The notes below the pieces were generated by a model. The model searched no databases, was not told the DNA's origin, and saw nothing but the letters and a program-made list of their open reading frames with translations. This document shows, piece after piece, positions 15,544 to 25,762 of a stretch of DNA of 64,000 nucleotides. Position numbers and translations under genes: made by a program. This DNA is from Streptomyces flavochromogenes. Its GTDB lineage: Bacteria; Actinomycetota; Actinomycetes; Streptomycetales; Streptomycetaceae. How positions within the stretch are numbered: position 1 is the stretch's first letter; the number at the start of each line of letters is the position of its first letter. Location: NCBI RefSeq assembly GCF_000717595.1, contig NZ_JNZO01000012.1:248001-312000 (forward strand). The letters run 5' to 3'.

Positions 15544-17082
15544 TCAGAACAGGCTGTTCGCCGCGAAGCGGAGCGCGATCTGCGGGTAGCCCGACAGGAC
15601 GACTCCGGCGGCGGCGGTCAGCACGATCGCCAGGGTGATCGGCGCGGGGACCGTGTGGGGGACGGGGGTCCCGGCAGGCGCGTTCCGCACCGCGTCCTCC
15701 GGCGTACGGAACAGCAGTGCCGTCCAGCGGAGGTAGTAGTACAGCCCGATCACGACGTTGACGCCCATGATCACGGCCAGCCAGCCGAGGCCCGCGTCGA
15801 CGGCCGCCGAGAAGACGGTCACCTTGGCGAAGAGGCCGATGATACCCGGGGGCAAACCGGCCAGATTCAGGAGGAAGAAGGCGAGCGCGAGGGCGACGGC
15901 GGGGCTCGTCGCGTACAGGCCCCGGTAGTCCGCGATCCGGTTCTCCGGGTGCCGGCGGGCGACGAGCGCGACGACGGCGAACGCGCCGAGGTTCACCACG
16001 GCGTACATCAGGGCGTACGCGACGGTGGCACCGATCTGGTCGTCGCTGGAGTACGCGGCGGCCGCGATCGGCACGAGCAGGTAGCCGGCCTGGGCGACGG
16101 AGGACCAGGCGAGCAGCCGGACCGCGCTCCACGCGCGCGTGGACACCTGGCGGAGGGCCGCGACGTTGCCGACGGTCATGGTCAGCGCGGCGAGGGCGGC
16201 CAGCGCCGGGCCCCACACGTCGGCGTACGAGGGGAAGGCGACGACCGTCACCAGGATGAGCCCGGTGAAGCCGACGGCCTTGCCGACCACCGACAGGTAG
16301 GCGGCGACGGGCAGCGGGGCGCCGACGTAGGTGTCCGGCACCCAGAAGTGGAAGGGGACGGCGGCCGTCTTGAAGGCGAAGCCGACGAGGGTCAGGGCCA
16401 CGCCCGCCTCGGCGAGCGTCTGGAGCCGGCCGGGGACGTCGTCGAGGGACTGGGCGAGCTCCGTGAGGTGGAGGGTGCCGGTCGCCGCGTACACGAAACT
16501 GACGCCGAGCAGGGTGACGGCGGTCGCGGTCACGGAGGACAGGAAGAACTTGAGCGCGGCCTCGCCGGACATGCGGTCGCCGCGCTTGAGTCCGACGAGC
16601 GCGAAGGCGGGCAGCGAGGCCACCTCCAGGGCGACGACCAGGGTCGCGAGGTCCCGTGAGGCGGGCAGCAGGGCGGCGCCGGCGGCCGAGGAGAGCAGCA
16701 GGAACCAGTACTCGCCGGCCGGGAGCCTCTCGCGGGTCTCGGTGACGGAGAGCAGCGCCGTCAGGAGCGCGCCGCCGAGCACCAGCAGCTGGATGACCAG
16801 GGTGAAGTGGTCGGCCGTGTAGCTGCACGCCCCGGCCCGGGTGTCCGCGGTGAGGCAGAAGGTGGAGCGGTCGCCGGCCCGCAGCGGGACGAGGAGGGCG
16901 AGGGCGGCGACGAGGCCGGCGATCGCCGTCCAGCCGAGGAGCCGCTTGCGCTCCTCGGGGACGAACAGGTCGGCGACGAGCACGACGAGGGCGACCACGG
17001 CCGTGAGGGTGGGGGGCGCGATCGTGAGCCAGTCGACGGACTGGACGAGCGACTCGCTGGCGAACGCCGTCACTGGGGTCAT
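15544..17082 (-). CDS. nuoN2: Complex I membrane subunit NuoN, second locus
   Basis: 512-residue antiporter-like subunit with ~14 membrane helices. Seen: the broken-helix lysine region VGFAFKTAAVPFHFWVPDTY (conserved Lys), ALKFFLSSVTATAV and a PPGIIGLFAKVTVF segment. In complex I, NuoN couples quinone reduction to proton pumping. ATG 17082 overlaps the nuoM2 stop (ATGA); last gene of the ten-gene locus. Clearly divergent from the nuoN at 58398-60059, so this is not a recent duplication. Confidence 0.92.
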   Translation of the reverse strand: MTPVTAFASESLVQSVDWLTIAPPTLTAVVALVVLVADLFVPEERKRLLGWTAIAGLVAALALLVPLRAGDRSTFCLTADTRAGACSYTADHFTLVIQLLVLGGALLTALLSVTETRERLPAGEYWFLLLSSAAGAALLPASRDLATLVVALEVASLPAFALVGLKRGDRMSGEAALKFFLSSVTATAVTLLGVSFVYAATGTLHLTELAQSLDDVPGRLQTLAEAGVALTLVGFAFKTAAVPFHFWVPDTYVGAPLPVAAYLSVVGKAVGFTGLILVTVVAFPSYADVWGPALAALAALTMTVGNVAALRQVSTRAWSAVRLLAWSSVAQAGYLLVPIAAAAYSSDDQIGATVAYALMYAVVNLGAFAVVALVARRHPENRIADYRGLYATSPAVALALAFFLLNLAGLPPGIIGLFAKVTVFSAAVDAGLGWLAVIMGVNVVIGLYYYLRWTALLFRTPEDAVRNAPAGTPVPHTVPAPITLAIVLTAAAGVVLSGYPQIALRFAANSLF

Positions 17083-18656
17083 CGGATGCCTCCGGCGAGG
17101 AGCTTCTGGACGGCCGGGTCGGTGAGGCCGAGGAGGACCGCGGGCCAGAGTCCGGCGAGGACGGTGAGGGCGACGAGCGGGGTCCAGGCGGCGAACTCGT
17201 ACCCCTGGACGTCGGCGATCGGCGTCTCCCCTGCGGGGCGGGGGCCGCCCATGCAGACGCGGCGGACGACGAGCAGGAGGTACGCGGCGGTGAGGAGGGT
17301 GCCGAAGGCGCCGATCGCCATGAAGGTGAGGAAGGCGGGGCGGCTGAGGCCCTCGGCGGGCTCGAAGGCGCCGAACAGGGCCAGCATCTCGCCCCAGAAG
17401 CCGGCCAGGCCGGGCAGGCCGAGGGAGGCGACGGCGGCGAAGGCGAGGAGGGCGCCGAGGCGCGGGGCGCGGCCGTAGAGGGCGGCGCCGGTGGCTCCGG
17501 CGAGGGTGTCGAGGTCCGCGGTGCCGTACCGGTCCTTGACCGCGCCGACCAGGAAGAAGAGCAGGCCGGTGACGAGACCGTGGGCGACGTTGGCGAAGAG
17601 GGCGCCGTTGACCCCGGTGGGGGTCATGGTGGCGATGCCGAGGAGCACGAAGCCCATGTGGCCGACGGAGGAGTACGCGATGAGGCGCTTGAGGTCGCCC
17701 TTGTTGCCGGGCCGCGCGAGGGCGAGGCAGGCGAGCGATCCGTAGATGATCCCGGCGACGGCGAAGGCGGCGAGGTAGGGGGCGAAGATCCGCATGCCGT
17801 CGGGGGCGATCGGCAGGACGATCCGGACGAAGCCGTACGTGCCCATCTTGAGCAGGACGCCGGCGAGGAGGACCGAGCCGACCGTCGGGGCGGCGGTGTG
17901 GGCGTCCGGGAGCCAGCTGTGCAGCGGCCACATCGGGGTCTTCACGGCGAGCCCGACGCCGATCGCGAGAACGGCGATGACCTGCACGGACGTGGTCAGT
18001 CCACGGCCGTTGTCAGCGGCCAGTGCCACCATGTCGAAGGTGCCCGCCTTCACCCCGATGAGGAGCAGGCCGAGCAGCATGACGACGGAGCCGAGCAGCG
18101 TGTAGAGGATGAACTTCCAGGCCGCGGCCTGCTTGCCCTCACCTCCCCAGCGGGCGATGAGGAAGTACATCGGGATGAGGACCATCTCGAAGGCCAGGAA
18201 GAACAGGACCAGGTCGAGGACGGCGAAGGTGGCGAGGGTGCCGGACTCCAGGACGAGGAGCAGCGCGACGAAGCCCTTGGGGGACGGGCCGGAAGGCATC
18301 TTGAAGTAGCTGTACAGCGCGCAGAGGAAGCTCAGGAGCGCGGTCAGGACCAGGAGGGGGAGGGAGATGCCGTCGACGCCGAGGTGGATCCGCACGTCGA
18401 GTGCGGGGATCCAGCTGATGTCCGTGGTGGCCTGCATCCTCGACGGCTGGTCGTGGTCGAAGCCGAGCGCGAGGACGACCGCGGCCAGCAGGATCACACC
18501 GGTGACGGTGACGCCGTGGCGGAGCACGGCCTGGTCGGGGGACTTCCCCTTCAGTCCCGGCGGGGCGGGGAGCAGGGCGGCGGCCGCGCCGAGGAGCGGT
18601 CCGGCGACGATCGACGCCAGAAGGAACTGCATCACGGATTCGCTGATATCGATCAC
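17079..18656 (-). CDS. nuoM2: Complex I membrane subunit NuoM, second locus
   Basis: 525-residue proton-pumping antiporter-like subunit. Conserved lysine in the discontinuous helix region GLAVKTPMWPLHSWLPDAH; glutamate-bearing helix in FLAFEMVLIPMYFLIARWGG; LKRLIAYSSVGHMGFVLLG. Start GTG 18656 lies 3 bp after the nuoL2 stop; an internal ATG at 18632 (MQFLLAS) is an alternative. Overlaps nuoN2 by 4 bp. The plus-strand open frames opposite are codon-bias artefacts. Confidence 0.92.
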   Translation of the reverse strand: MIDISESVMQFLLASIVAGPLLGAAAALLPAPPGLKGKSPDQAVLRHGVTVTGVILLAAVVLALGFDHDQPSRMQATTDISWIPALDVRIHLGVDGISLPLLVLTALLSFLCALYSYFKMPSGPSPKGFVALLLVLESGTLATFAVLDLVLFFLAFEMVLIPMYFLIARWGGEGKQAAAWKFILYTLLGSVVMLLGLLLIGVKAGTFDMVALAADNGRGLTTSVQVIAVLAIGVGLAVKTPMWPLHSWLPDAHTAAPTVGSVLLAGVLLKMGTYGFVRIVLPIAPDGMRIFAPYLAAFAVAGIIYGSLACLALARPGNKGDLKRLIAYSSVGHMGFVLLGIATMTPTGVNGALFANVAHGLVTGLLFFLVGAVKDRYGTADLDTLAGATGAALYGRAPRLGALLAFAAVASLGLPGLAGFWGEMLALFGAFEPAEGLSRPAFLTFMAIGAFGTLLTAAYLLLVVRRVCMGGPRPAGETPIADVQGYEFAAWTPLVALTVLAGLWPAVLLGLTDPAVQKLLAGGIR

Positions 18657-25361: not shown

Positions 25362-25762
25362 GCCAGGACGCCCTTCTTGTACGCGTAGAGCAGCCCCACG
25401 GCCAGGAAGCCGAGGAAGACGAACATCTCGACCAGGGTCGTGGCGCCGTAGCCGGGCGCGGCGAAGACCGTCGCCCAGGGGAAGAGGAAGATCGAGTCGA
25501 CGGCGAAGATGACGTAGAGGAAGGCGTACACGTAGTAGCGGACCTGGGTGTGCGCCCAGCCCTCCCCCACCGGGTCGACACCGCACTCGTAGGTGAGGAG
25601 CTTCTCGGGCGTCGGCACGACAGGCCTCAGCAGTCGGCCCGCGCCGAACGCCACGGCGACGAAGAGCACTCCGACGACGGCGAGCAGGCCGACGACGGAG
25701 TACGTCTGGAAGTAGTCCGCCGCGCCCGTCGCGCCGGTCGCGACAACGGTCTGTTCCCGCAC
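25352..25762 (-). CDS. nuoA2: Complex I membrane subunit NuoA, second locus
   Basis: 136-residue NuoA with three helices; YECGVDP near residue 58 is the signature loop at the quinone cavity entrance, followed by RYYVYAFLYVIFAVDSIFLFPWA. First gene of the operon. Start GTG 25762; the upstream 300-bp gap holds an 11-bp repeat array and is shared with the divergent histidine-kinase gene. Overlaps nuoB2 by 10 bp. Confidence 0.93.
   Translation of the reverse strand: MREQTVVATGATGAADYFQTYSVVGLLAVVGVLFVAVAFGAGRLLRPVVPTPEKLLTYECGVDPVGEGWAHTQVRYYVYAFLYVIFAVDSIFLFPWATVFAAPGYGATTLVEMFVFLGFLAVGLLYAYKKGVLAWT

Follow-up and report, generated by a model that had tools for sequence, protein, structure and literature searches.

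The closest described relatives of the system reported here are complex I enzymes of 11 subunits, such as that encoded by nuoABCDHIJKLMN in Desulfitobacterium hafniense (PMC11238625), and a second nuo locus of Streptomyces, nuo2 (SCO4599–4608). That nuoD2 lies apart from nuo2 was already stated in papers on Streptomyces non-coding RNAs (PMC3765725, PMC8388888), and the function of nuo2 was called unclear, with cooperation or a hybrid with the main complex suggested (PMC9239103). Here we analyse nuo2 in a stretch of 64,000 nucleotides from Streptomyces flavochromogenes (contig NZ_JNZO01000012.1, positions 248,001 to 312,000), referred to below as the window, which has a G+C content of 72%. The locus is very probably the same as SCO4599–4608 (PMC9239103, PMC8388888, PMC3765725).

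In the window, nuo2 consists of ten tightly joined genes on the minus strand, from 25762 to 15544, in the order A B C H I J K L M N. As the original prediction had it, the operon contains no nuoD, nuoE, nuoF or nuoG, and nuoC2, ending at 23170, overlaps the start of nuoH2 at 23173 by 4 bp. NuoE, NuoF and NuoG are encoded within the main 14-gene nuo operon, which starts at the right window end and continues past it (no genome-wide search for extra E, F or G copies was made). The absence of NuoD, however, holds for the operon and not for the genome. A search of the genome with PF00346, of the kind the prediction had proposed for finding an additional nuoD-like gene, returns two genes only: the main nuoD, located on the same contig 7 kb outside the end of the window and about 50 kb from nuo2, and an intact second gene, nuoD2, on another contig (C30). 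Its product of 380 amino acids is 91–93% identical to NuoD2 of three named Streptomyces. A group 4 [NiFe]-hydrogenase large subunit was considered and rejected: NuoD2 has three cysteines and no CxxC motif, and PF00374 scores below its cut-off. At a distance of 4 bp from nuoD2 lies a gene whose product, a MidA/NDUFAF7-type methyltransferase with a PF02636 domain (68.3 bits against a cut-off of 23.3), has as its sole match among solved sequences a weak one to a COG1565 protein. Together with nuoD2 the operon supplies the eleven-subunit set A, B, C, D and H–N, and the ligands of iron–sulfur cluster N2 in NuoB2 and two 4Fe-4S motifs in NuoI2 are present. We consider it probable, at about three in four, that nuo2 encodes an 11-subunit complex I without an NADH module, whose NuoD comes from the separate nuoD2 beside a MidA gene.

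A reciprocal residue switch at cluster N2 provides the strongest evidence that NuoB2 and NuoD2 form a pair. At the switch position the main Nuo proteins have Arg in NuoB (20/20 genomes) and Thr in NuoD (19/19), whereas the nuo2 proteins have Thr in NuoB2 and Arg in NuoD2 (41/41 each); operons from outside the class Actinomycetes have the nuo2 state in 14/14. The same inter-subunit switch separates Thermus (NuoB Arg83, NuoD Thr) from Yarrowia (NuoB Thr122, NuoD dimethyl-Arg121), and the two Arg side chains occupy the same space (PMC8042128). In human NDUFS2 the target of NDUFAF7 is Arg85, with Thr64 as its Thermus counterpart (PMC3829151). The switch Arg of NuoD2, which is Arg55 in an HRGxE motif in the genome of the window, is the counterpart of NDUFS2 Arg85. 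NuoD2 therefore fits NuoB2 while NuoD1, the main NuoD, does not, and the Arg state of NuoD2 would offer a reason why MidA travels with it.

The genes also occur together. In a class sample of 246 Actinomycetes genomes, NuoD2 is found in 99, NuoH2 in 61 and MidA in 97. A NuoD2 match here means about 250 bits or more, with two weaker matches still counted (G157 at 231 bits, within the top of the NuoD1 range, and a fragment in G097). NuoD2 is present in 59 of the 61 genomes with NuoH2, the two without it being 72% and 80% complete, and in 90 of the 97 with MidA. When only genomes with a completeness of 90% or more and a contamination of no more than 5% are counted, these fractions become 50/50 and 78/81. 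No NuoD occurs at any of 80 named nuo2 loci; in 27 named genomes chosen from these loci, NuoD2 is found in 26 and NuoH2 in 21, and 20 of the latter have NuoD2. One genome rated 100% complete, G128, has a single NuoD, a single NuoH and a single NuoB, all of nuo2 type, along with a full nuo2 operon, so nuo2 with NuoD2 can stand without the main-type NuoB, NuoD and NuoH. We re-examined with PF00346 the 16 NuoD2-negative genomes with more than one NuoB match. Several contain a weaker NuoD relative in a long frame, which we take to be probably of the hydrogenase-4 type, and two (G004 and G042) have one NuoD only.

Operons in sister classes suggest how the separation arose. In 14 of 20 stretches fetched from other classes of the phylum, where NuoD2-like proteins occur, the genes stand in one operon as A B C D H I J K L M N, the NuoD encoded in place being of NuoD2 type; all 14 have Arg at the switch and Trp at the quinone site in NuoD, and Thr in NuoB. 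In three of the 14 a MidA match of 38–48 bits directly follows nuoN2. These arrangements make it most likely that an ordinary nuo operon of 11 genes was ancestral and that nuoD2 left it in Actinomycetes. Two further stretches (L229 and L235) contain NuoD2 and MidA with no nuo operon in the stretch, and the displacement may have occurred more than once. The remaining four contain a different NuoD, with position 87 (Thermus numbering) Tyr in three and not read in one. Among them, L224 and L225, from one 1.8-Mb genome, have two nuo operons without matches to E–G and a NuoD of Arg/Tyr type.

In the complex we propose, NuoD2 with NuoB2, NuoC2 and NuoI2 would form the quinone (Q) module around N2, on a membrane arm of NuoH2, A2, J2, K2, L2, M2 and N2. 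MidA probably dimethylates NuoD2 Arg55 beside the cluster. Low-potential electrons from 2-oxoglutarate, delivered by KorAB directly or through ferredoxin, would enter at NuoI2 and pass to N2, which would reduce quinone, most likely menaquinone, coupled to proton pumping. The korAB genes (30013–33091, plus strand) begin 4.25 kb from nuoA2, in agreement with the roughly 4 kb first estimated; they encode fused POR gamma/alpha domains and a thiamine pyrophosphate (TPP) beta subunit, with 2-oxoglutarate as the predicted substrate. Of the 80 named nuo2 loci, 59 include korA, and several of the others are truncated at contig ends. The linkage of korAB to nuo2 is widespread in Actinomycetes and is suggestive of a donor role. 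With KorAB next to a complex I that lacks an NADH module, it is reasonable to regard ferredoxin, or KorAB itself, as the putative donor, and to this extent, for the donor side, the original proposal can be retained. In alignments, the Lys and Glu pump residues are kept in the antiporter-like subunits NuoL2, NuoM2 and NuoN2 and in NuoK2, and His38 of NuoD2 is kept in 21/21 full forms, in 15/17 of a large clade of reduced forms described below and in 3/3 recently reduced forms.

Several observations weigh against this assignment. MidA is missing from 6 of 84 complete genomes with NuoD2, three complete genomes have MidA without NuoD2, and NuoH2 is not found in 40 of the 99 genomes with NuoD2. Kineosporia mesophila (L171) has a full nuo2 and korAB, and only NuoD1 was found in its genome. 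KorA occurs in 195 of the 246 genomes, also without NuoD2. There is no KorA match in eight complete NuoD2 genomes (seven without NuoH2, and G128), six of them judged from absence among the listed positives; the match is weak in G190 and G194, and none of the 20 stretches fetched from other classes shows KorAB. KorAB can therefore not be the sole donor. The Arg/Thr switch tells which states co-occur and not which proteins bind each other. Compared with the main subunits, NuoH2 and NuoA2 are each short of one acidic residue. Finally, Tyr87 (Thermus numbering) of NuoD is replaced by Trp in 41/41 NuoD2, compared to Tyr in 19/19 main NuoD, and Trp is also found in the 14/14 operons outside the class and in 7/7 further named genomes. 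Tyr87 has been described as "strictly conserved" and as a ligand of the quinone head group (PMC8119997), and owing to Trp the His38–Tyr87 pair of a quinone-reducing site is incomplete in NuoD2. With the Lys and Glu residues kept, the acidic residues lost and Trp at position 87, pumping looks possible and the quinone chemistry may be unusual, differing from that of the main complex.

The 40 genomes with NuoD2 and no NuoH2 reveal reduced forms of the system. Two or more NuoB matches are present in 38 of them, one in G190 (94% complete) and none in the incomplete G097. Twenty second-NuoB loci were fetched and scanned by tblastn against the window proteins. They contain nuoB2 in 20/20, nuoC in 18/20 and nuoI2 in 18/20, two loci ending at a contig end; at L067 the place of nuoC is taken by a conserved reading frame without a nuoC match, and at L051 4 kb separate C2 and I2. 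The stretches of 19 loci contain no A2, H2 or J2–N2, three of them with at most 2.3 kb of downstream sequence, and the twentieth (L053, in G030) has A2 and H2 with internal deletions. Named B2-C2-I2 forms without arm genes over at least 9.9 kb downstream are those of Streptoalloteichus tenebrarius, Actinosynnema pretiosum, Lentzea waywayandensis and Saccharothrix deserti; two Microbispora records have the same organisation, with little flanking sequence. The six named reduced genomes, one of them a fragmentary metagenome-assembled genome, all have NuoD2 and no match in the NuoH2 clade, and in 6/6 MidA lies in the fetched stretch around nuoD2, unlike one Glycomyces stretch. Two Glycomyces loci (L170 and L190) present another form, in which nuo2 is seemingly cut to A2, B2, C2 and H2, with 10 kb downstream without I2–N2. 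The alignment of reduced-form NuoC (244 columns) lacks the repeat-rich tail of the window NuoC2.

A tree of NuoD2, NuoB2, NuoC2 and NuoI2, for which the 11-gene operons from the other classes served as root, places the reduced forms at three positions inside the full forms: a large clade with the four named genera (support 94), the Microbispora group next to a neighbour of the full type (99–100) and G030. Support labels may shift by one node on rerooting, and the large clade has partly weak inner supports and long branches. The first tree, rooted on the main subunits, gives the same three groups, with the direction for the large clade not settled. The three positions point to at least three losses of the arm (A, H, J–N) as the most likely history, with NuoB2, C2, I2 and D2 kept. 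In the large clade, for which residues were counted in 17 genomes with the named ones left out, NuoB2 keeps the four N2 cysteines in 17/17, and the NuoI cysteines are kept too, whereas the Asp, the Arg and the PRQAD segment of main and full NuoB are not conserved; the Microbispora group already has Arg in place of the PRQAD Gln. Main and full forms have 88 NuoD residues in common. Of these, 54 persist in 15 or more of the 17 reduced sequences and 15 in no more than eight, the decayed ones including Phe141 (0/17), Glu130 (4/17) and Arg165 (6/17). The N-terminal segment of full-form NuoI2 is missing, by eye, in 16 sequences. We take the decayed NuoB and NuoD residues to face the membrane and the quinone. 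Their loss beside intact cluster ligands suggests that contact with NuoH and the quinone tunnel was given up, and that the reduced form is a soluble complex I head. Another NuoH is present in all 34 complete genomes that have NuoD2 without NuoH2, as it is in most genomes; docking of the reduced set on the main membrane arm nevertheless seems less likely because the contact residues decay.

korAB is present in 12 of the 20 reduced loci, divergent from nuoB2, with 101–499 bp between the match ends of korA and nuoB2 in ten and about 2.3 kb in two. We tentatively suggest, at somewhat less than even odds, that NuoB2-C2-D2-I2 transfers electrons as a module in its own right, supplied by KorAB or by a different source of ferredoxin. 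It would have originated as the head part of an 11-subunit complex I and been severed from the membrane arm at least three times in Actinomycetes. Such a module would be soluble, with three [4Fe-4S] clusters, Trp in place of the quinone Tyr and an Arg beside N2 that MidA perhaps methylates. Should the reduced form indeed be soluble, complex I would here have a head that operates in the absence of a membrane arm; we know of no other such head, and none is named among the literature matches listed.

A more far-reaching version, in which B2-C2-D2-I2 is the working enzyme itself in Streptomyces too and the arm an optional addition, would fit the repeated loss of the arm, the decay of membrane- and quinone-side residues and of the NuoI N-terminal segment around preserved N2 and NuoI cysteines in the large clade, and the proximity of korA and nuoB2 (within about 400 bp in 8 of the 12 korA-bearing reduced loci). 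We regard it as unlikely, as the window has an intact arm whose pump residues are conserved, G128, which has no main NuoH, retains all of the arm, and the other NuoH in the 34 complete genomes would allow docking on the main arm. Separation of nuoBCDI from the membrane genes has moreover been reported in Chloroflexi complex I (PMC7117926), so gene separation alone proves nothing.

The original prediction instead suggested that nuo2 possibly borrows NuoD1 from the main operon, which would give a hybrid complex. Hybrid complexes have been suggested for S. coelicolor (PMC9239103), the main nuoD lies on the same contig as nuo2, and Kineosporia mesophila, with only NuoD1 found, would suit the idea. 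We now consider it very improbable. nuo2 has a dedicated nuoD2, which accompanies NuoH2 in 59 of 61 genomes and in every one of the 50 at least 90% complete, and whose switch residue matches that of NuoB2; a NuoB2–NuoD1 pair would have Thr on both sides and no Arg beside N2, and a NuoB1–NuoD2 pair would have two. G128, furthermore, has no second NuoD to borrow. The alternative that the prediction had named as one possible refutation, an Mrp-type antiporter of NuoL2, NuoM2 and NuoN2 with vestigial B2, C2 and I2, is scarcely credible: these subunits do score against antiporter models, as complex I antiporter-like subunits generally do, but their scores against the family models of NuoL, M and N are clearly higher than those against the Mrp models, the iron–sulfur ligands are conserved, and it is the opposite genes, B2, C2, I2 and D2, that persist where L2, M2 and N2 are lost.

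The genes of the two clusters in the window are listed in Table 1. The long tail of nuoC2 (23170–24150) contains a repeat with a 96-base unit in 3.6 copies (23695–24033). Between nuoA2 and korA, at 25878–29758, lie genes for two histidine kinases (PF13796/PF07730) and a LuxR-type response regulator, in the same position as AbrC1/C2/C3, which are divergent from SCO4599–4608 (PMC9739823). Directly adjoining nuoN2 downstream on the same strand are genes for an MscL channel (15051–15506) and an M48 peptidase (14001–14864). A YajQ-type gene (PF04461) is found at 9554–10105, and members of this family also flank reduced nuoB2-C2-I2 cassettes.

Table 1 Genes of the nuo2 operon and of korAB in the window
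Gene	Product and features	Position	Strand	Basis of assignment
nuoA2	136 amino acids	25352..25762	-	NCBIfam
nuoB2	213 amino acids; N2 cysteines 47, 48, 113, 143; Thr85 at the residue-switch position	24720..25361	-	Pfam, NCBIfam, alignment
nuoC2	517 amino acids; Pfam domain 30-150, then repeat-rich tail	23170..24723	-	Pfam, NCBIfam
nuoH2	322 amino acids	22205..23173	-	Pfam, NCBIfam
nuoI2	191 amino acids; two 4Fe-4S motifs; canonical N-terminal segment kept	21630..22205	-	Pfam, NCBIfam
nuoJ2	198 amino acids	21037..21633	-	Alignment to main subunit
nuoK2	129 amino acids	20648..21037	-	Alignment to main subunit
nuoL2	663 amino acids	18660..20651	-	NCBIfam, alignment
nuoM2	525 amino acids	17079..18656	-	NCBIfam, alignment
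nuoN2	512 amino acids	15544..17082	-	NCBIfam, alignment
korA	Fused gamma/alpha 2-oxoacid:ferredoxin oxidoreductase subunit	30013..32046	+	PF01855, PF01558, PF17147
korB	Beta subunit	32039..33091	+	PF02775

Once nuoD2 is counted, nuo2 has the same gene set as the 11-subunit complex I of D. hafniense, for which ferredoxin is likewise the proposed donor (PMC11238625). It differs in that nuoD2 is displaced and lies beside MidA, Trp replaces the quinone Tyr, the neighbour is KorAB and not a pyruvate enzyme, and a full 14-gene nuo operon is also present. The displaced nuoD2 is already published, and we read the locus as encoding a probable 11-subunit complex I split into two pieces. The accessible parts of the papers on SCO4599–4608 (PMC9239103, PMC8388888, PMC3765725) do not mention the methyltransferase, the residue switch or the reduced forms. 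In the literature searched, with subscription papers mostly outside reach, we did not find the MidA pairing, the switch within one genome, the Trp or the armless forms. In the Chloroflexi 2M complex I, Q-module genes likewise lie apart from the membrane genes (PMC7117926), but there the membrane genes are found elsewhere in the genome, whereas no second NuoH was found for the reduced forms here. KorAB of Mycobacterium tuberculosis is the same two-gene type of enzyme, broadly present in Actinobacteria; unlike in the linkage described here, no nuo partner is named in the accessible part of that study (PMC2773412). Which donor serves the 11-subunit complex I has been left open (PMC11238625), and KorAB offers a genetic candidate in culturable bacteria.

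The resemblance to mitochondria concerns NDUFS2 and its methyltransferase NDUFAF7/MidA (PMC3829151, PMC8042128, PMC9006661): NuoD2 shares the HRGxE Arg that NDUFAF7 dimethylates, NuoB2 has the matching Thr (PMC8042128), and a PF02636 gene adjoins nuoD2. In contrast to mitochondria, methylation of NuoD2 is a prediction from the genes, and the main NuoD of the same genome is of the Thermus type. A single genome thus holds both versions of the switch, the Thermus type in main Nuo and the mitochondrial type in nuo2, with a methyltransferase beside the Arg version. This makes the role of dimethyl-arginine testable in a bacterium, with the other version as an internal control.

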